From Candidatus Altimarinota bacterium (GTDB lineage: Bacteria > Patescibacteriota > Gracilibacteria > UBA4473): DNA of 64,000 nt. The stretch lies in assembly GCA_023143095.1 (NCBI GenBank), contig JAGLIF010000009.1, forward strand, positions 1 to 64,000, given 5' to 3'. The stretch's first letter is position 1; each line of letters starts with the position of its first letter. Both the position numbers and the translations under genes were made by a program. Shown piece after piece: positions 1,495 through 58,450 of the stretch. The notes beneath the pieces are model-generated. The model did no database searches. It saw only the letters and a program-made list of their open reading frames with translations, and had not been told where the DNA came from.

Positions 1495-1522
1495 AAGTCC
1501 GGACTCTGCAGAGTCCGGACTT
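1495..1522. repeat. 28-bp perfect palindrome with T tail
   Basis: AAGTCCGGACTCTG is followed immediately by its exact complement and then TTTTG on the plus strand. The stem is GC-rich in an AT-rich setting and could act as an intrinsic terminator in either direction. No gene ends directly at it, so it may be another mobile hairpin. Confidence 0.7.
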
Positions 1523-2403: not shown

Positions 2404-4932
2404 CTACTTTACGACAAATCCAACAATTTTGCCTGGCACAAAGATTTCTTTCACAATTTCCCCTGCTTCCAAATATTTCTGCACTCTCTCTATCCTTTTA
2501 GCATGAGCAATAACCACCTCTTTTTTAGTCTCCTTATCTATTTGAAAATCTCCTCGAACTTTTCCATTAATCTGTATCGCATAAGTCACATTATTCTCTA
2601 CCAATAAACTTTCATCATAGATAGGCCAATTTGCAAAAACCAAAGTCTCTTCATGTCCCAAATACTTATTCCAAATTTCTTCAGCCAAATGTGGCGCAAA
2701 TGGCGAAATCAAAAGCACCAAACTTTCAGCCTCTTTTTGCCCCATCTTTGAATTTTTCTGTAATTCATTAAAACACACCATTAGTTGAGAAATCGCAGTA
2801 TTAAACCGAAATTCATCAATATGATCTGAGACTATTTTGATCGTTTTATGAATTATCGGCAACAATGTTTTGTCTGTATTCTCATCAAATTTATTAGCTT
2901 GGAAAAATCTCCACACTCGATCCAAAAACTTTCTCATCCCTGCTACTGCTCCAGAATCCCAAGTCTTGCTCTGCTCAAATGGTCCCATAAACATTTCGTA
3001 CATTCGCAAAGTATCAGCTCCATATTCTCGAACAATCTCATCTGGATTCACTACATTCTTAAGTGATTTTGACATCTTTGCCACGATCCGAAAAACTTCT
3101 TCCTTTTTCTCCTTATGATAAAATTTACCATTTTTTTCTTCCACTTCATCAATGGGAATAAGCACCCCATCCTTGTTTTCATATGCAAAAGATAAAATCA
3201 ATCCCTGATTCACGAGTTTTTTAAAGGGTTCTTTTGTATGTACCAACCCTAAATCATAAAAAACCTTATGCCAAAATCGAGAATACAAAAGGTGCAATAC
3301 AGCATGTTCCGCTCCACCAACATACAAATCCACTGGTCCCCAAAACTCTTCCGCCTTTTTACTGCAAAATTCTTTCTTATTATGCGGATCCATAAACCGC
3401 AACCAATACCATGAACTCCCTGCCCAATTGGGCATCGTCGAAGTTTCTCGTTTCGCTGGCGCACCACATTTTGGACAAGTGGTATTTACCCAATCCGTAA
3501 CCTTTGACAAAGGAGACTCCCCTGTCTCTGAAGGCTCATAATTTGGCGTTTCTGGTAATTCCAATGGCAATTCCGATTCTGGCACTGGAACAACTCCACA
3601 TTTTTCACAATGCACCAAAGGAATCGGTTCACCCCAATATCGCTGTCGTGTAAAAATCCAATCTCGAAGTTTGTAATTTACCACTCGTTTCCCCCAACCT
3701 TTTTTTTCAAAATAATCCATTATCCGCTCCTTAGCCTCCATAATTTCCAAACCATTCAAAAATTCACTATTAATCATCTTTCCTTCCTCCTCCTGTACTT
3801 GTTCTGGTCGAACAATAGAAGAAACATCTCCATCCGAAGAAACTACTACCCTCTCAACTTCAATTGCAAATATTTGAGCAAATTCAAAATCACGCAAATC
3901 ATGACCTGGTACTCCAATCACCGCACCCGTTCCAACATTTGCTAAAACGAAATCCCCAACATACAAAGGAATCTTCTTATTATTCAAACGATTTAGAACA
4001 TATAATCCAGTAAATACACCCGTTTTTTTCCGTCCCTCTGACATTCTTTCTATATCTGACTTTGCCAAAGATTCTTTTATATACATTTCCACAGCTTCTT
4101 TATTTGGAAACTTATTCAAGTGATTTTTGATAAAACCTTGTTCTGGAGCCAAAACAAGAAATGTCGCCCCAAAATTCGTATCAGGTCGAGTTGTAAAACA
4201 AGTGATTGCCTCCTTTATTCCTTCTACAAAATAATCAATATTAATACCTGTTTTCTTCCCAATCCAATGTTTTTGCATAACCTTAATCTTATCTGGCCAC
4301 TCAGGAAGTTCATCCAAATCATTGAGCAATCGCTCCGCATAATCAGTAATCCGAAACATCCACTGCTTTAACTCTTTTTTCGAAACCATCTCCCCACATC
4401 TCTCATGTCTCCCTCTTTCTACTTCTTCATTGGCACACACCACCTTGCACTTTGAGCACCAATTCATATCCATAGATTTCTCATATGCCAATCCCTTTTT
4501 GTACAATTGTAAAAAAATCCACTGACTCCATTTAAAATATTGCGGATTAGTCGTATCTACCTCACGATTCCAATCATATGAAAACCCAAGACTTTGAATT
4601 TGTCGTCGAAAGTTTTTGATATTGTCATGCGTTGAAACAGATGGATGTACACCCGTCTTAATCGCGTAATTTTCCGCTGGCAACCCAAAAGCATCCCATC
4701 CCATGGGATGTAGTACCTCATATCCTTGTTGTCTCTTTTTCCGACAAATAATATCCGTCGCTGTATAACCTAACGGATGTCCTACATGCAATCCCGCCCC
4801 ACTCGGATATGGAAACATATCAAGCGCATAAAATTTCGGTTTTTCAGAAAAATTATCAGCCTTAAACGATTGATTATTCTCCCAATAAGCCTGCCATTTT
4901 TTCTCAACACTTTGATGATTGTATTTTACCAT
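2404..4932 (-). CDS. leuS: Leucine--tRNA ligase
   Basis: This class Ia synthetase charges tRNA-Leu and is essential for translation. The 842 residues match a bacterial LeuRS. The HIGH-type motif is HVGH at 49-52, after PYPSGAGL. Cys pairs typical of the zinc region follow (CSKCKVVC near 160). The CP1 editing domain carries TTRPDT and GTGAVIGVPGHD, so post-transfer editing should work. The KMSKS loop reads AKMSKSLKN near residue 625. The C-terminal anticodon-binding and tRNA-binding parts are present. The first Met is the natural start (MVKYNHQSVEKKW). A tRNA-Leu gene lies in this window at 14411. Confidence 0.98.
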   Translation of the reverse strand: MVKYNHQSVEKKWQAYWENNQSFKADNFSEKPKFYALDMFPYPSGAGLHVGHPLGYTATDIICRKKRQQGYEVLHPMGWDAFGLPAENYAIKTGVHPSVSTHDNIKNFRRQIQSLGFSYDWNREVDTTNPQYFKWSQWIFLQLYKKGLAYEKSMDMNWCSKCKVVCANEEVERGRHERCGEMVSKKELKQWMFRITDYAERLLNDLDELPEWPDKIKVMQKHWIGKKTGINIDYFVEGIKEAITCFTTRPDTNFGATFLVLAPEQGFIKNHLNKFPNKEAVEMYIKESLAKSDIERMSEGRKKTGVFTGLYVLNRLNNKKIPLYVGDFVLANVGTGAVIGVPGHDLRDFEFAQIFAIEVERVVVSSDGDVSSIVRPEQVQEEEGKMINSEFLNGLEIMEAKERIMDYFEKKGWGKRVVNYKLRDWIFTRQRYWGEPIPLVHCEKCGVVPVPESELPLELPETPNYEPSETGESPLSKVTDWVNTTCPKCGAPAKRETSTMPNWAGSSWYWLRFMDPHNKKEFCSKKAEEFWGPVDLYVGGAEHAVLHLLYSRFWHKVFYDLGLVHTKEPFKKLVNQGLILSFAYENKDGVLIPIDEVEEKNGKFYHKEKKEEVFRIVAKMSKSLKNVVNPDEIVREYGADTLRMYEMFMGPFEQSKTWDSGAVAGMRKFLDRVWRFFQANKFDENTDKTLLPIIHKTIKIVSDHIDEFRFNTAISQLMVCFNELQKNSKMGQKEAESLVLLISPFAPHLAEEIWNKYLGHEETLVFANWPIYDESLLVENNVTYAIQINGKVRGDFQIDKETKKEVVIAHAKRIERVQKYLEAGEIVKEIFVPGKIVGFVVK

Positions 4933-49632: not shown

Positions 49633-49665
49633 CTCCCTCATTCCTGCAAAAGCAGGAATCCATGT
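49633..49665. repeat. REP-A copy (diverged)
   Basis: CTCATTCCTGCAAAAGCAGG continues AATCC, an inverted REP-A in which both stem sides have changed together (GCAAAAGC in place of GCGAAGGC). Confidence 0.7.
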
Positions 49666-49724
49666 ATTTTGTCTTCATGAATTTATTTCAAGATATACGA
49701 TATTTTATTTTTCTTACATAGTTC

Positions 49725-49750
49725 TATGTACTTATTATAATAAGTACATA
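49725..49750. repeat. 26-bp perfect AT-rich palindrome
   Basis: TATGTACTTATTA is followed immediately by its exact complement. It lies between the convergent UDG and redox-fusion genes. The same arms occur in the 40-bp palindrome at 56294-56333. Confidence 0.9.
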
Positions 49751-49793
49751 ATTAAAAACAAAAGGTGATTTAATAAACTAGTAAATAAACGAT

Positions 49794-50855
49794 TTATATA
49801 AAACCTCCTAATAAAATAATCCCCATCGCCAACATAATAATTCCAGCAATAAGATGAAGTATTCGTAAATTTTTTGCTCGTTTTTGTTCTGCTTTTTCTA
49901 CATTCATTCCATAATATGTTCCAATAGTAATTCCCAACATAGGAAACACAAAAATTAAATTGTATAAAAGCAGTAAATACACAGCAGTAAAATAGGTTTC
50001 TCTTTGTCCAAGCATGCTCACAATCACAATGTATGGACCACTTGTACAAGGAAGTAAAAACAGACTTACAAAAAATCCTATTAAAAAAGCTCCAAATGGA
50101 CCTGTAATCGATTGAATAAGCTTTTTAAGTCTAGGACGCCAAGAAAGAGGAACTTCCATGAGAAATCCTTTCCCATACCAAAAAAAATCTTTGAGATTTA
50201 AAATCCCAAAAAGAAGAGCTACTCCTCCAATAATTTGTGTAAAAATAATTGAAAATTCAATACTAGCAACTATAGAATACAACCCCAATCCCATCAAAAA
50301 GTAGGAAATAAAAATAGACAACGAAAACATAATTCCTGAAAACAACGCACGCTTTCTTTCTCCAGAAGCAAGAATTGTTGCCATCAAAATTAACAAGACA
50401 GCAAATGCACACGGATTGATAGCATCTACAATCGCCGCCCCTACTAATAAAGAAATAGTAAGTTTTCTTGCTGAATATTCTTTTTTATTTGGGATACTAT
50501 TTTCAACTTCTTTTTTGGAAGCAGAATGCTCCAAATAACCAATAATTTGATCACTTCCGACAAAGCATTGATTTTCAGCATACAAAAAAGGAACTCCTCG
50601 TTTATAAAAATCAATATTATGACTATCACAAACCTGATTAAACTCAGTAGCATTTTCACTATTCTGATAAACTTCTTTTTTTGTAATCGGAAGTTTTATA
50701 TTATTTTCCTCAATGTATTTTGAAACAATTGAACAATGTGGACATCCATTGCCATAATACAAAACAGCTTCTTCTGAGGATTGAGCAAACGATGTTAAAA
50801 AAGAAAAAAACAAAAAAGTAAAAACAAGAAAAAAACGCTTTACCAATCTACACAT
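49794..50855 (-). CDS. Glutaredoxin-like domain fused to a CcdA/DsbD-type membrane domain
   Basis: The 353-residue protein has a signal peptide (cut near SFAQ, residue 25). A ~85-residue thioredoxin-fold domain follows with the redox pair CPHC (YYGNGCPHCSIV) and the cis-Pro in RGVPFLYAE. Then come about six helices with the two CcdA/DsbD Cys (INPCAFAVLL and FLLPCTSGPY). In the family electrons move from cytoplasmic thioredoxin through the membrane Cys pair to an outside domain; here both parts are in one chain. It could keep exported Cys proteins reduced. Confidence 0.88.
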   Translation of the reverse strand: MCRLVKRFFLVFTFLFFSFLTSFAQSSEEAVLYYGNGCPHCSIVSKYIEENNIKLPITKKEVYQNSENATEFNQVCDSHNIDFYKRGVPFLYAENQCFVGSDQIIGYLEHSASKKEVENSIPNKKEYSARKLTISLLVGAAIVDAINPCAFAVLLILMATILASGERKRALFSGIMFSLSIFISYFLMGLGLYSIVASIEFSIIFTQIIGGVALLFGILNLKDFFWYGKGFLMEVPLSWRPRLKKLIQSITGPFGAFLIGFFVSLFLLPCTSGPYIVIVSMLGQRETYFTAVYLLLLYNLIFVFPMLGITIGTYYGMNVEKAEQKRAKNLRILHLIAGIIMLAMGIILLGGFI

Positions 50856-50946
50856 ATAGAAAATAAATTATATTTTAAATTTGTTTTGAGTATAAATCAG
50901 CAATTACTGATTTACAAACTTTCCATTACTATTTTTCAATGTTTAC

Positions 50947-53490
50947 TCACTCAAACACAATCTTTCCACTTTTTATATCAACTTTAATTTTGAGTAATTT
51001 TTCATTTCCCCTCTCTAAAAGTTTTAACGCAAGTGGATTGAGTAATTCACGCTCAATTGCTCGTTTGAGCGGACGAGCTCCAAACTCAGGATCAAATCCA
51101 ATATTAGAAAGATACTCTTTTGTTTTATCAGTAAGAGTTAAATGAATGTTTTGGTTTTCTTTCAATCGCTTACTAATAGATGCAATATGTAAATCGAGAA
51201 TAGCATCTATATCCGCTTTTCTAAGCGTGTGAAAAGCAACCATTTCATCAAGCCGATTCAAAAACTCTGGACGGAAAAAATTTAAAAGTTTTTCTCGAAT
51301 TTGTTTTTCACTTGGAAGTTCATTCTCCTTAACTTCTTCTGAAAGCAAGTTTGAAGTAAAGATAATAATTGTATTTTTAAAATTCACTTTTCGTCCTTTA
51401 CTATCTGTAGCATGTCCATCATCTAAAATTTGAAGAAATATATTAAATACATCTCGATGTGCTTTTTCTATTTCATCAAACAACAATACGCTATAGGGTC
51501 TTCGTCGAACTTTTTCTGTTAATTGTCCACCTTCATCATGCCCAATGTATCCAGGGGGAGCTCCAATGAGTTTAGCAACAGAGTGAGATTCCATATATTC
51601 GGACATATCAAACCGTAATAAAGACTCTTCAGTATTAAAAAGTGTTTCGGCAAGTATTTTTGCGAGTTCTGTTTTTCCAACTCCAGTAGGACCCAAAAAT
51701 AGAAATGATCCAATCGGTCTATTTTCAGCAGACAATCCTGCACGATTGCGTCGAATAGCATTTGAAACTGCTTGTACAGCTTTTTCTTGACCAATAATAC
51801 GCTCTTTGAGCGTTGTTTCTAAATACGCTAAGCGTTTAGATTCTTTTTCTGTAAGTTTTATCACTGGAATCCCTGTCCATCGAGCAATAATTTCAGCAAT
51901 ATCGTCTTCATTAATTTGTTCTCGAAGTAGGGTTTTATTTTTTGGCTTTTGCTTAAGATCACTAATTTCTTTTTCTATACTTGGTATTTTTCCATGTCGA
52001 AATTCAGCTGCTTTCGCATAATCAGCACTCTTTTCAGCATTTTTTGCTTCAAATCGAAATTTTTCAAGCTGTTCCTTTAACCTTGTAATTTTATCAACTG
52101 ATTCTTTTTCTAGATTCCATTGAGCCTGATTTCTTTTTAACGCTTCTTTCAAATCAGCAATTTTTTTCTCAGTCTTACTAAGTTTTTCTTTTTTGGTATT
52201 TTCTTTTTTCAGAGATACTCGTTCAATTTCGAGAGTCAATAATTCCCGTTTTATATTCGAAATACTTTCCGGTTCAGACTCAATCTCAAGCTTAAGCTTA
52301 CTCATAGCTTCATCCATAAGATCAATAGCCTTATCTGGAAGTTTACGATCTGGCAGATACCGAACAGAAAGATTTATCGCAGATATAAGCGCATCATCCG
52401 TAATACGAACACCATGGTGAAGCTCATATTTTTCACGAATTCCACGCAAAATAGCTAACGCTTCTTCAAAACTAGGTTCTTCCACAGAAATCGGTTGAAA
52501 ACGACGCTCAAGAGCAGCGTCTTTTTCAATATATTTCCTATATTCATTCATCGTCGTAGCTCCTACGCAATGTAATGTCCCCCGAGCAAGTGCTGGTTTG
52601 AGAATATTTCCTGCATCCATAGATCCTTCTGCAGCTCCCGCCCCTACGATAGTATGGAGTTCATCAATAAAAAGTATTATTTTCCCTTCCGCTTTCTCAA
52701 GCGCCTTAAGAACATTTTTGAGCCTATCCTCAAATTCTCCTCGATATTTAGCACCTGCAACAAGAGATGCTAAATCCAATGACAATACTCGTTTATTTTT
52801 AAGTGACATTGGAACTTCTCCTTGATATATTTTCACAGCTAAACCTTCTGCAATTGCTGTTTTCCCAACCCCAGGATCACCAACCAAAACTGGATTATTT
52901 TTCGTTCGTCGCGATAGTATTTGGATTGTTCGACGAATTTCATCGTCTCGTCCAATAATTGGATCTATTTTTCCTTTTTGAGCCAATGCAGTATAATCAA
53001 TAGTATATTTTTCAAGTGCTTTAAGCTTTTCGTGTCCATCTGGAGAATCTATTTTCTCCCCTCCTCTGAGATCAAGAATAGCTTTTTTGACTAAATCCCC
53101 CTTAACGCCGAATGTTTCAAGATCATTCTTTGCTGTAGAATTTGTTTCAAACACAGCAAGAAAAAGATGATCTATTGAAAGATAGTCATCTTTAAATTCT
53201 TTTTGCCATTTTTCACTTCCCCTAATTATATCTGAAAATTCTCTAGAAGGCGTTCTTTGACCCCCTTCTACTTTTGGAAAAGTTGATACTTTTTTCTCAA
53301 AATGAGCCAAAAGATTCGCTGAATCCACTCCCAATTTAGAAAAAATTTGATGGATAAATGAATCTGAATCTTTTAAGATGGCTAATAGCCAATGATCGAT
53401 TTCAATATTTGAAGCAACTAAATCATCTGCCAATTTTTGCGTATCGGCAATCGATTGTGCAGCGGGTGTGGTCCATTGATCAAAATTCAT
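50947..53490 (-). CDS. clpB: ClpB disaggregase
   Basis: ClpB works with DnaK to pull proteins out of aggregates. The 847-residue protein has the Clp N-domain, AAA+ domain 1 ([13 protein letters not shown] near 203; [13 protein letters not shown]), the coiled-coil middle domain (~400-520) and AAA+ domain 2 ([12 protein letters not shown] near 600; [10 protein letters not shown]). The C-terminal domain follows. No ClpP-binding IGL loop is evident, which fits ClpB rather than ClpC. A short 7-bp hairpin (50894-50913) follows the stop. Confidence 0.97.
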
Positions 53491-53716
53491 AAGAAAATAG
53501 GATTATTGGCAGTCCTAACTATAGACTGCTAATGTTTTACTGTCAATACATATTTTTAACTTTTGGATAAATTTTTTTTGAAGAGTAAAACATGGAAGTT
53601 CTAGGATAAAAAATGTTTGGGTATAGAATAAGCAACTACTATCATTTCACTTGAGGAAATATGGGATTTATGGTAAAATTACAAGAATAATTTATCAAAA
53701 TCTCACTTCTTCGATT

Positions 53717-55090
53717 ATGGCAAACTTTAATAGACCAAGACGAGAACCATCTCGACAAAACACACAACAAAGCCTAGAAAATTTTGCTTTAGAATTAAAG
53801 CCAAATTTGATAATAGAAAATAATGAAAAAGCAACTATCACAATTAGAAATAAATGGTTCAGAATTTTTAAAATGAAAGATGGTGGAATTCGTTATCAAA
53901 CAAGTCTCAATCATAAAATAAAAAATTTAGATTTCTATGGTATTGATGATCTTGCTAAAAAACTATCGAGACCTTTTACTGACACTTTTGGATTAAACCG
54001 TCCAAATTTCAGAAAACAAGTCGAAAAAATATATATGGAACTTTCCCTAGTCTGTACCCCATATAGTCCAAAAATGGAAACTAAGAATACTGTTTTCTAC
54101 AATATAAAAGACCATGAAAATGCGACATTAACACTTGGTGGGCATGTTATAACAATACAAAAACTCGAAAAAGGCATTCGGCATTCTATTGATGGAGGAA
54201 CTCCAAAAATACTCTATTTCAATAATGTTAAAGATTTAAATCTCAAAATAGGAAAATGGCTAGATCATGAGATTGGAACCCGTCGATTACACGCACCAAC
54301 TCAAATGAGAGCTATTTATAGAAAATTAAATCTCACAGAGTGTAGCGGAAGAAAAGAAAGTGCTGAGTACAAAGAAGCTATACAAAAAACTGAGAAAAAA
54401 ACTCTTCTTGGAATAGATTATGGAACATATCAACTCGAAAAAAACAAGCTTCCAGAAACCTATCTGCTAGTAAGAAACAATAATTCAGGTTGCTATTATT
54501 GTCTTTCGTTAGTACAAGAAATGTTTGATTTAATTTATGGAAAAGATTCAGCAAAACGCGCTGGACTTTACTCAAGCAACCTCGCGGAAAATCTTCAAGT
54601 TTATGATTTAAAAAATGTAAAAAATGAAAGATATAATCCTGTAAAACATACCAATCTAAAAAAAGGAACCATTCTCAGGTTTTCAAAAGAACTATCTATA
54701 ACCCACATAGGAATTTCATTAGGAGAAAATAAAATAGCACACATCATTGGAGATATTTTGTATATAGACAAACTTTCTAATATTTCAGAAGGATGGAGTC
54801 CAAAAGAAATTCTTATTCCCAACAATTCTTTTAGACAAAAACCTCTCGAAATAAAAACATACAAAAAAGTATTTAAAAAAAACCGATCAATTGAATCCAT
54901 TAGTCCTTTTTTGAAAAAAAACATTCCAAAACTAAAACATTACAATTCAGCCGCCATTGAAGAAATCATATACCAACTCAATAAAGATAAATTCAAAATG
55001 ATATTGAGTGACAACTACAATCAAGATACTCTGATCGTACTCAAAGCTGATACAAAACTGAATCTTCCAAAAGAGTGGATTTTAACTTAA
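53717..55090 (+). CDS. Possible NlpC/P60-like protein with a duplicated N-terminal domain
   Basis: From the ATG at 53717 the protein has 457 residues and no signal peptide. Residues ~30-115 and ~125-215 are a diverged repeat: 'NEKATITIRNKWFRIFKMKDGGIRY' aligns with 'HENATLTLGGHVITIQKLEKGIRH', and both end in '(I/M)YRKLNL'-like helices. The third part (~250-400) has wording of NlpC/P60 peptidases: a Cys before a helix (YYCLSLVQEMFDLIYG, compare DCSGLVQY), then KKGTILRF and THIGISLGENKIAHI (compare GDLVFF…HVGIYLG). The catalytic assignment is inference. Confidence 0.6.
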   Translation: MANFNRPRREPSRQNTQQSLENFALELKPNLIIENNEKATITIRNKWFRIFKMKDGGIRYQTSLNHKIKNLDFYGIDDLAKKLSRPFTDTFGLNRPNFRKQVEKIYMELSLVCTPYSPKMETKNTVFYNIKDHENATLTLGGHVITIQKLEKGIRHSIDGGTPKILYFNNVKDLNLKIGKWLDHEIGTRRLHAPTQMRAIYRKLNLTECSGRKESAEYKEAIQKTEKKTLLGIDYGTYQLEKNKLPETYLLVRNNNSGCYYCLSLVQEMFDLIYGKDSAKRAGLYSSNLAENLQVYDLKNVKNERYNPVKHTNLKKGTILRFSKELSITHIGISLGENKIAHIIGDILYIDKLSNISEGWSPKEILIPNNSFRQKPLEIKTYKKVFKKNRSIESISPFLKKNIPKLKHYNSAAIEEIIYQLNKDKFKMILSDNYNQDTLIVLKADTKLNLPKEWILT

Positions 55091-55153
55091 TCCCCCTTCA
55101 TTCAATTCAAATTTTGATAGAAAATGTTTTTGATTTCTTCTTTTTCTCTTTTT

Positions 55154-55177
55154 GTTTTTATCAGCGTTTCCTTAAAC
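55154..55177 (+). repeat. Tail-motif repeat copy
   Basis: TTTTTATCAGCGTTTCCTTA ends at the stop of the following minus-strand gene. Confidence 0.55.
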
Positions 55178-56020
55178 ACCAACAACTCCTTTTTTCGAAG
55201 CCGTAACATTAAACATTTCTTTTAGAAGTTCATTAGTAAATATTCTTTTGAAAGATGCTTTTTGATCTGTTTCTCCACTATCGCTTCTTTTTGAAATATC
55301 ATGTTGTAGTTCCAATAAATCTTCAAAGGCTTTTGGATTTTTTTGAATTGAATCCAAAATACACTCCGAAATCCCCTCTCTCATTTTTTCTGGATACTCA
55401 GCATATTTTAATTTTAAATCAAAAGAAAGACTATCCACTATTTCCCACACAATGAAATCATTTAAATCCATACAAAATTTATTACTTTTATCGAATACAC
55501 TTATATCTCTCCAAAAATCAGTAAGCGTATTCCTTATATCATTTGAATTAAGAAATTCATCTTTTTGTTGTTTTGTTTGTTCATGCCGATAAAAATTTTT
55601 ATCAATAACCTTCTTCAAATCTTTAAATTCAACAAATTCTAAATTCAAACCTAATTTCCATATAAGAAAAAAACAATCTTCTTTCTCCATTCCAATATCA
55701 ATAGCCGCATTAACAACACTTAAAATATTATTAAATAATATAGAGTCAGTACCAATAGAAAAAAAATCTTTTCCTTTCTCTTTCTCCTCTTTATACCTTT
55801 TCCTATATATCTTCATTACATTCTGAAACGACAATGTGGTAAATGGATAATACGCTTCTACCCATTCTACAACAGGGTCTGTTTCATACTCACTATTCGT
55901 AATATCCCCTACAGAATCTGCAACAATTTTAACATTTTCATTTATTTGATCATCTTTAACTGGAAGTGTATCTGCACCAACTTCAAGTTCACCAACAGAT
56001 ATTTTTTCTTTAATTGACAT
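55172..56020 (-). CDS. Acidic soluble protein, unknown function
   Basis: The 282-residue protein has no signal peptide or membrane helix. It is helix-rich and acidic with scattered Trp/Phe (VVEWVEAYYPFTTLSFQNV near 48; FLIWKLGLNLEFVEF near 120). The N-terminal ~45 residues look disordered. No motif or family was recognised. It is transcribed away from the exporter operon, with the 40-bp palindrome between them. Confidence 0.65.
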   Translation of the reverse strand: MSIKEKISVGELEVGADTLPVKDDQINENVKIVADSVGDITNSEYETDPVVEWVEAYYPFTTLSFQNVMKIYRKRYKEEKEKGKDFFSIGTDSILFNNILSVVNAAIDIGMEKEDCFFLIWKLGLNLEFVEFKDLKKVIDKNFYRHEQTKQQKDEFLNSNDIRNTLTDFWRDISVFDKSNKFCMDLNDFIVWEIVDSLSFDLKLKYAEYPEKMREGISECILDSIQKNPKAFEDLLELQHDISKRSDSGETDQKASFKRIFTNELLKEMFNVTASKKGVVGV

Positions 56021-56293
56021 TTTTCTAATTATTTAAAAAATTTTACTTTTTAGTTATAGTACAACCCATTGACTTTATCAAGTTTATATTTTAATTGCAT
56101 ATCCCTATCCTGTCTTTTATCTTATAATTACCCAACTGATATACTCAATTCAAAATTTAAAAAAACACCAATAAATTTACTAAAAATAATCAAAAATATA
56201 ATCTTTATTATAAAAATCACGCTTTTTTATATGGAGAGAGAAGTTGTAATAAAGTAGCAGAAGAAGATTTGTTGAACACAAACATTGATCAAG

Positions 56294-56333
56294 TTATGTA
56301 CTTATTATAATCATGATTATAATAAGTACATAA
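56294..56333. repeat. 40-bp perfect AT-rich palindrome
   Basis: TTATGTACTTATTATAATCA is followed immediately by its exact complement. The outer arms are the same as those of the palindrome at 49725, with a longer centre (TAATCATGATTA). It sits in the 522-bp divergent spacer upstream of the exporter operon; the rest of that spacer shows only a tail-motif piece near 56377 and a -10 box. Confidence 0.9.
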
Positions 56334-56501
56334 AGAACCTCTAATAAAAAATAATCAATTTTATAGAAATAAAGTTATTTATCAGACCTTCTTTAACCTT
56401 AATCAAGAAAACGATTACTTGACTTTTGTGCTTTTTTTAGGTAAAATAATATTTAAAAAAAACTTCAATAACAATTTTGAAAGAAATATAAATAATATGC
56501 G

Positions 56502-56542: not shown

Positions 56543-58450
56543 ATGAATAAAAACGAATCTGTAATTGAGCAAAGTAAAAAATCTCGTTGGTATCGAAATT
56601 GGTTTTCAATAAGTTCTGTTATTGCCATCAGTGGGTTAGGATTATATTTTTTTCAAAAAGAAGACACTCCCAATACAGATAAACAACCATCCGCACTCTA
56701 TACCGTAAAAAAAGGAAATATTCAAATCTCGGTAGAAGGAGAAGGAAAAATCATGAATCCGAACATCGTAAATCTTTCTTTTTTTATCAACGGAACACTC
56801 GACGAAATATTGGTAGAAGAAGGACAAAAGGTAACAACTGGAGATATTTTAGCAAAATTGGATAAACGAGATTACGAATTTAATCTCAAAGACTCCCAAA
56901 GCCAAGTTAGAATTGTACAAGCAAATATTAAAGCAAAAAAATCAGAAATTACCGATGACGATATTCGAATAGCAAAAAATGACATTCTCATCAGTCAACA
57001 AAACCTAAGAAATGCAGAAAATGATTATCAACAAACACTTGATCAAGCTCTTGTTTTAGGCTCACTTAAACTAGAAACAACACTTTCAGAAATACGAAAA
57101 GCTTTGGAAAATATAGACGACATCTTGGGCGTAGATAAAAATCGTTCAAAATATTCCAATGTAGCAACCACCTTCAATAATTCTATATTAAAAAATAGGG
57201 CTATAAATGCCTATAAAGATTCAAAAAGAGAATGGGATACTCTTTGGTATGACTATTACAAAAAATCCCCATTAGAGAAAACTGATATTTCAAGTTTTTT
57301 GTGGCAAACAAAAAACCTAGCAATTAATGTACAAAACACACTAGAAACAACCCTGCGTTTATTTTCTACAAGCACTTCCAATAATGCCGCAAGCGTCTCT
57401 AACATCAATGAAGCGGAAAATATGATAAAAAATGTACTTAGTACAATCAACGGAGAAATAAACGATTTGACCTCCTCACGACAAAAAATAGAAAATGCTT
57501 ATCTAGCACAACAAAATGGCTTAAATAATATGGAAAACTCACTAAAAACTAGTCAAATAAAATTAGAAAATACATCTTTGAATTTAGATCAAAAAAATAC
57601 ATCTAAAGAAGCAAGTCTTTCTGTTCTCTATGCTCAATTGGAACAATCACTGATAAAAGTAGAAAAAACAAAATATAATCTAGATCTTACCACACTAAAA
57701 GCACCAATCGATGGTGAAATCATCGTAGTAAACGGAAATCCTGGAGAAGCTGTAAAAGTAGATTCTACAAGTAGTGAAAATGCCCTTATTCGTATTTTAA
57801 GTGATGCAAATTTTACAACCGAAATTTATGTAGAAGAAGTGGAAATCGCTAATCTTAAAGTAGGTCAAAAAGCCATTATTACAATGGATGCCATAGAAGA
57901 CCTAATACTGGAAGGGAATATATCTTATATCGCCAGCGTCGCAACAATCGACAATAATAACATTACAACTTATCTCGTACGAGTTGATATCCCAAACACA
58001 AAAGAAGCTTCCATAAAAGAAGGTATGTCTACCTACACCGAATTCATTCTTCAAAAGGCAGAAGATGTCCTAATAATTCCAAACAGTGCTATACGAAAAG
58101 GACAAGTCCAATTGGAAAATGGTCAATTTATCTCTGTAAAAACAGGTATAACCGATGGTATTACAACCGAAATTAAGAATGGTTTAATCGTCGGACAAAA
58201 AATATTTCAAATCCCTCAAACACAACAAGAAGGAACAACTAATTCAACTACTCCGAAAACAGAGAAAGATGTGACAGAAGATCGAATGCAATTAATTGAA
58301 TCAATGTTAAAAAAACAAGATATTCTTCCAGAAGGATGGGAAAAAATGTCTACAGAAGAAAAACAAGAATCACTTCAAACTCTCAGAGAATCTGGTGTAT
58401 TCCAAGGACTTAACGGCTCTTCGGAAAGAGGTATGGGAGGAGGTCGTTAA
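56543..58450 (+). CDS. MacA-like periplasmic-adaptor (HlyD family) protein
   Basis: The 635-residue protein has a membrane anchor (~24-40). A first biotinyl-lipoyl half (VKKGNIQISVEGEGKI…VEEGQKVTTGDILAKLDKRDYEF) is followed by a very long helical hairpin (~105-385). The second lipoyl half (LDLTTLKAPIDGEIIVVNGNPGEAV) and β-barrel/membrane-proximal domains come next, then a C-terminal helical tail ending GGGR. The hairpin (~280 residues) is much longer than in E. coli MacA. In a monoderm cell such adaptors may reach through the wall. It is first in an operon with the ATPase and permease. Confidence 0.9.
   Translation: MNKNESVIEQSKKSRWYRNWFSISSVIAISGLGLYFFQKEDTPNTDKQPSALYTVKKGNIQISVEGEGKIMNPNIVNLSFFINGTLDEILVEEGQKVTTGDILAKLDKRDYEFNLKDSQSQVRIVQANIKAKKSEITDDDIRIAKNDILISQQNLRNAENDYQQTLDQALVLGSLKLETTLSEIRKALENIDDILGVDKNRSKYSNVATTFNNSILKNRAINAYKDSKREWDTLWYDYYKKSPLEKTDISSFLWQTKNLAINVQNTLETTLRLFSTSTSNNAASVSNINEAENMIKNVLSTINGEINDLTSSRQKIENAYLAQQNGLNNMENSLKTSQIKLENTSLNLDQKNTSKEASLSVLYAQLEQSLIKVEKTKYNLDLTTLKAPIDGEIIVVNGNPGEAVKVDSTSSENALIRILSDANFTTEIYVEEVEIANLKVGQKAIITMDAIEDLILEGNISYIASVATIDNNNITTYLVRVDIPNTKEASIKEGMSTYTEFILQKAEDVLIIPNSAIRKGQVQLENGQFISVKTGITDGITTEIKNGLIVGQKIFQIPQTQQEGTTNSTTPKTEKDVTEDRMQLIESMLKKQDILPEGWEKMSTEEKQESLQTLRESGVFQGLNGSSERGMGGGR

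Follow-up and report, generated by a model that had tools for sequence, protein, structure and literature searches.

We found that the two perfect palindromes at positions 49725–49750 and 56294–56333 of the 64,000-nucleotide stretch of Candidatus Altimarinota DNA analysed here (the window) are real, that they are neither a pair nor a generic repeat, and that they most likely represent solo operators, the regulator being MazE-like and lacking a recognised toxin. The explanation that we favour, and regard as likely, derives them from a one-gene autoregulatory cassette, made up of a 58-aa AbrB/MazE-fold protein and a 12-bp-periodic array, of whose operator they would be dispersed copies.

Direct reading and the inverted-repeat listing (I19 for the short palindrome) both confirmed the palindromes as originally predicted, but not their description as AT-only: they are AT-rich and contain 4 and 6 G/C bases. 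Both are unstranded and loopless, with ungapped arms of 13 bp in the 26-bp palindrome and 20 bp in the 40-bp one, and TATGTACTTATTATAA is common to both as an exact match. The short core (49726–49749) reads ATG-TACTTA-TTATAA-TAAGTA-CAT and has one box, and the long core (56296–56331) reads ATG-TACTTA-TTATAA-TCATGA-TTATAA-TAAGTA-CAT and has two. The short palindrome is thus the long one minus exactly one 12-bp unit; the "extra centre" ascribed to the longer one is indeed extra sequence, but it is not arbitrary, being one TTATAA box plus one hexamer. By our own estimate, with one-third GC assumed, about 0.004 such palindromes with 13 pairs are expected per window, and <1e-6 with 20. The window palindromes are not chance occurrences, and the copies elsewhere in the genome settle the matter.

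The half-site ATGTACTTATTATAA has 27 exact occurrences on both strands of the whole genome (1.2 Mb, 97% complete). Allowing up to 2 mismatches gave 57 matches, compared to 10 for the reversed control pattern, which we read as 26 elements, 15 of them perfect palindromes; copies that diverge by more than 2 mismatches in the half-site may be missing from this number. The 24 further copies have unrelated genes beside them and are spread over nine other contigs and the rest of this one. One window copy does lie upstream of the exporter operon, and its counterpart closes the interval at the opposite end, but given these further copies it is highly improbable that the two act as matched sites that delimit or co-regulate an interval with the redox-fusion gene, clpB and the exporter side. 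The original view of a pair enclosing a gene set and controlling the exporter is unsupported, and the interval has no special status of its own.

The elements share the plan ATG-X-box-X-box-X-CAT. The box is TTATAA in 45 of 53 cases and TTTAAA in 8 of 53, while the X hexamers are TACTTA/TAAGTA, TAATGA/TCATTA or TCATGA. Across the 26 copies just two X units, TACTGA and TAGGTA, fall outside this module alphabet. The elements have one, two or three boxes and measure 24 bp (only the copy at 49726), 36 bp (23 copies) or 48 bp (two copies), and the unit is therefore 12 bp. The suggestion of an ancestral hairpin that lost its centre was accordingly half right: copies differ by whole units. Twelve copies, including that at 56296, are the same 36-mer letter for letter, so that the long window core is identical to 11 others, and this common form carries TATAAT, the −10 consensus, on both strands. 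A tandem duplication of ∼416 bp contains two identical 36-bp palindromes (L033:3989-4440). The motif TTATAAT...ATTATAA had brought a Fur/PerR-type box to mind, an idea that we abandoned in view of the AbrB/MazE-like gene at the palindrome edge. A Dif/Xer site or a CRISPR-like repeat was judged unlikely, the copies being many, dispersed and variable in their units.

All 26 elements are intergenic. The 24 classified gaps with copies comprise 12 co-directional, 7 convergent and 5 divergent gaps, as compared to 51, 7 and 25 among the 83 other gaps, an excess of copies in convergent gaps (p = 0.014); promoters are therefore not favoured. Convergent excess without concentration at promoters is not predicted by a simple repressor regulon. 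The short window palindrome lies, as first noted, between convergent gene ends and resembles a solo operator. The long one is upstream of the exporter operon, 212 bp ahead of the exporter gene (ATG at 56543) and 276 bp away from the divergently oriented one, and is at the start of neither. A good sigma-70-like putative promoter for the exporter operon, TTGACT-17-TAAAAT, was read by eye at 56419–56447 on the + strand, about 85 bp downstream of the long palindrome and without overlap, and direct control of the exporter by this palindrome is therefore unproven.

The convergent excess (7/24 against 7/83) would fit transcription terminators or mRNA 3′-end hairpins serving both strands between convergent genes, and the RNA hairpins are strong (−18 and −10.7 kcal/mol, z −5.8 and −4.3). 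The stem, however, is almost all A-U and is followed by no T run (the downstream sequences are AGAACC and ATTAAAAAC), in keeping with the earlier remark that a terminator's GC stem is lacking. In addition, co-directional or divergent gaps hold 17 of the 24 copies that were classified, and termination leaves the 12-bp unit, the hexamer swaps and the gene at the palindrome edge unexplained. We regard this reading as very unlikely and reject termination as the main function; a GC-rich stem with a T run is not what these elements have.

When the sequences flanking the 26 elements were sorted, reading away from the palindromes, a shared stretch emerged on one side. At least nine copies adjoin a gene for a 58-aa AbrB/MazE-fold regulator on that one side, one intact and at least eight decayed by stops and frameshifts (L023, L026, L027, L030, L031, L035, L036 and L042); the remnants are flush with the palindrome and all have the same direction. 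L032 may be a further remnant. The single intact gene in this genome (G000 contig C10:62647-62820, L039/L047; 58 codons, protein MTRNKVGSENVRKITRVGSMSYSITIPVEYMRKLKWREKQKVVVTKRGKKLVIEDWEA) has an ATG that overlaps the palindrome edge (ACATG) and a TATAAT 6 nt before it, and is a lone gene flanked by hisS-like and hisI-like genes (named by eye) that lie on the opposite strand. Comparison of flank similarity found no clear regulator-gene remnant beside either window palindrome; a possible last trace is the weak similarity of 49751–49771 (+ strand, ATTAAAAACAAAAGGTGATTT) to remnant L030 (only z 4.4).

The regulator matches PF04014 (MazE_antitoxin) at 25.5 bits, above the cut-off of 24.7, and Pfam MazE_antitoxin was found in 33 of 34 aligned family members. 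Its predicted monomer model (pLDDT 88.7) has the AbrB/MazE order E-E-H-E-E, that is beta-beta-alpha-beta-beta. The nearest solved folds are MazE, AbrB and SpoVT, with MazE the best (probability 1.00, TM 0.65, E 0.07); weak E-values are expected for only 58 residues. By the domain test the regulator is assigned to the AbrB/MazE swapped-hairpin DNA-binding proteins, and we predict that it forms a dimer and binds DNA. The original prediction had offered binding sites for a dimeric regulator as one of two ideas; this is the better one, the best candidate being the 58-aa protein, whose gene begins at the edge of one copy and which would bind these sites.

The remnants share a mean identity of 74% to one another in aligned columns (∼26% divergence) and the palindromes 90%, with almost all differences between palindromes being swaps between allowed hexamers. 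Decay at the rate of the remnants would leave many disallowed letters in the palindromes, of which only the two units are seen, so selection or homogenisation is probably still at work on the palindromes. The remnants may have diverged in part before copying, and gene conversion is another process that could keep the palindromes similar. As the palindromes are almost free of random substitutions, many of them are probably still bound or otherwise selected.

A family profile search identified related regulators in 30 of 380 genomes sampled from the phylum and 9 of 353 from the class, and in no viral contigs, phages or plasmids. Several members per genome are common, up to nine in the Falkowbacteria genome of L070. 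Palindromic arrays precede many of these genes; their sequence differs but the 12-bp step is constant, as in L078 (TACGTAATTAATTACGTTATTAACTACGTA), L080 (AAATAGCTATTTAAATAACTATTT), L074 (AAGTACGTATTCGAATACATAAACGAATACGTACTT), L145 (GAGCATGCTCCGGAGCAAGCTCCGGAGC) and genome G138 (TACGTAATTAATTACGTA). We compared 61 family members with 118 control stretches and 109 upstream regions of other genes. The best period is 12 in 38/61 members against 7/118 and 7/109 controls, at least 13 of 18 positions match at lag 12 in 32/61 members against 0/118 and 0/109, and palindromicity of at least 10/12 occurs in 30/61 against 0/118 and 4/109. About half or more of the relatives thus appear to have their own 12-bp-periodic array before the start codon, and ∼40% lack a clear array by the periodicity test. 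TATAAT or TACAAT lies inside or just before many arrays, which is partly expected because the boxes are AT-rich. These features are the marks of an autoregulatory operator, to which the regulator would bind. The nine paralogous regulators L142–L150 belong to G697 (Falkowbacteria bin.303), and the 12-bp arrays of the four that were read (L143, L145, L146 and L147) all differ; one is GC-rich, with GAGCATGCTCCG repeated. At L084:1492-1824 two regulator domains are fused head to tail (110 aa) behind the array AAGTATATACTAGGTATATACTTAGTATATACTT.

The exact palindrome core was found in none of 60 relatives searched, only in its own genome, so that the sequence of the palindrome is lineage-specific but its architecture is not. 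A degenerate 30-mer had 6 matches in the public genome collection and 1 in the viral collection. Two of these look related: the Falkowbacteria record (L070) has a near-identical palindrome together with its nine family regulators, and the Parcubacteria record (L067) a similar palindrome. Together with the genome size and completeness, these two records suggest that the window's genome belongs to the Patescibacteria (CPR). The other genome matches are low-complexity TAATTATT-type arrays, and the viral match (L073) is a TAATGATTATAA repeat with no regulator gene seen beside it. The L067 palindrome (3790-3827), near-identical in sequence, marks the beginning of a serine-recombinase-like gene, and the search found no family regulator in that Parcubacteria genome.

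Operator copies without a gene also occur in relatives. Five identical 23-mers lie on five contigs of G138 and only one of them is at the gene; no regulator remnant was seen by eye at the four bare copies. G003 also has extra array copies, as does G586 with one mismatch, the G586 copy perhaps by chance because it is inside an ORF. The perfect symmetry of the solo operator at L157:1501-1522 (G138) extends into its flanks (CCTCAAATA...TATTTGAGG), which differ from the flanks of other copies, as if they had been copied across the hairpin. As for the original proviso that many similar palindromes genome-wide would indicate a generic repeat, such palindromes are indeed many, but their likely cognate gene and phylum-wide architecture set them apart.

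The cassette may operate as follows. The array ends at the start codon of the regulator and contains TATAAT; regulator dimers would bind successive palindromic boxes, spaced by 12 bp, side by side, and once bound would silence the promoter that is overlapped or adjoined by the array. In other genomes, related regulators would follow the same scheme with arrays of differing sequence, often before a same-strand gene. In this genome the cassette would have been copied many times near REP elements that possibly carried it, after which most gene copies decayed and the palindromes stayed almost free of random substitutions.

REP-like motifs are within 160 bp of 21 of the 26 copies, and one type (REP-A) is at a near-fixed distance in eight copies, including that at 49726, where a degenerate REP-A element (49670–49707, unstranded, TGTCTTC..GATATACGATATTTTA) lies at a distance of 19 and an unstranded REP-B hairpin (49640–49659, ATTCCTGCAAAAGCAGGAAT) adjoins the palindrome. 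REP-like hairpins are also present at window position 1495–1522 and in the flanks of most copies, and the genome has at least four other REP-like hairpin families (GTCCGGAC, GCAGGAAT, CGTAGATC and AGTTCGAACT types). One Y1_Tnp gene over the cut-off (C7:5006-5374) encodes a putative RAYT-type transposase, and it is plausible but unproven that REP elements and this enzyme were the vehicle of palindrome spread. These data, along with the intergenic placement, the convergent-gap excess and the decayed flanks, would also fit a non-autonomous REP/BIME-like mobile repeat, spread by the single Y1 transposase, that has no present function and carries the regulator gene as a passenger. We consider this unlikely. 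The palindromes keep a strict module alphabet while their flanks decay, a passenger gene does not explain why the same architecture, with different sequences, precedes the regulator in many genomes, and the four bare G138 copies have no visible remnant of such a passenger. Nor do the palindromes look like REPs, which are imperfect, GC-containing hairpins with a conserved tetranucleotide tag: they are perfect or near-perfect, AT-rich and loopless, and the neighbouring REP-A hairpins fit that description better.

The cassette reading supplies a testable rule, in which the 12-bp array before the start codon often reveals the probable DNA site of a 58-aa MazE-like protein; we found no description of this phylum-wide rule in the open-licence literature, nor any paper there that links palindromic repeats in these phyla to AbrB-family proteins or orphan antitoxins. 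It also offers natural protein-operator pairs of differing sequence for the study of specificity change in the AbrB/MazE fold. Same-strand ORFs of at least 90 aa begin within 150 bp downstream of 43 of the 61 members. The 20 such neighbours scanned with Pfam are diverse, including HsdM, EcoRI-type and type III methylases, a Schlafen-type helicase, a DUF3800 protein, RlmH, a TypA-like GTPase, an ABC transporter, MurB, TspO and a glycosyltransferase, and the family offers candidate regulators of restriction-modification and other operons in small-genome bacteria with little-known regulation. The dispersed, mutation-resistant copies raise the question of the role of the regulator at ∼25 mostly non-promoter sites. 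Tentatively, and with some doubt, we propose that toxin-less MazE-like one-gene regulators with their own 12-bp operators (up to nine paralogues per genome) form a phylum-wide, portable self-repressing promoter cassette, whose operator, without the gene, can spread through a genome and be maintained by selection at the ends of genes as chromosome-wide protein-bound sites with a non-promoter role.

Among the closest known systems is MazE of E. coli, which has the same fold and Pfam family and whose mazEF operon is autoregulated via a repeated palindromic operator, the "alternating palindrome", overlapping the promoter (PMC4803016). As in type II toxin-antitoxin systems, a putative palindromic autoregulatory operator lies at the promoter here, judged by sequence architecture. 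In contrast to mazEF and to type II operons in general, no gene for MazF or another known toxin is beside the scanned regulators: the intact gene stands alone, and none of the 20 scanned downstream neighbours belongs to a known toxin family, though diverged toxins may escape such a scan. The arrays here are also 12-bp-periodic with 2–3 boxes, their sequence is member-specific, and the operator is dispersed over the genome. The YefM-YoeB operator likewise has short palindromes, L and S, 12 bp apart centre to centre, one over the −10 region, a spacing needed for cooperative binding (PMC4803016); YefM, however, is of a different protein family, recognises the hexamer TGTACA and has a toxin partner. 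The REP/RAYT (TnpA-REP) systems share short intergenic multicopy palindromes, a Y1 transposase gene and REP-like hairpins beside most copies, but here there are 26 copies rather than >100, the palindromes are perfect and AT-rich with a 12-bp unit, and the associated gene encodes a DNA-binding regulator, not a transposase. In several relatives the regulator gene is 1–90 bp before a DNA methylase gene (HsdM, EcoRI-type or type III), an arrangement reminiscent of the controller (C) proteins of restriction-modification systems. C proteins are helix-turn-helix proteins, whereas the regulators described here have the AbrB/MazE fold and, in other relatives, stand before genes for RlmH, TypA, MurB or a glycosyltransferase.
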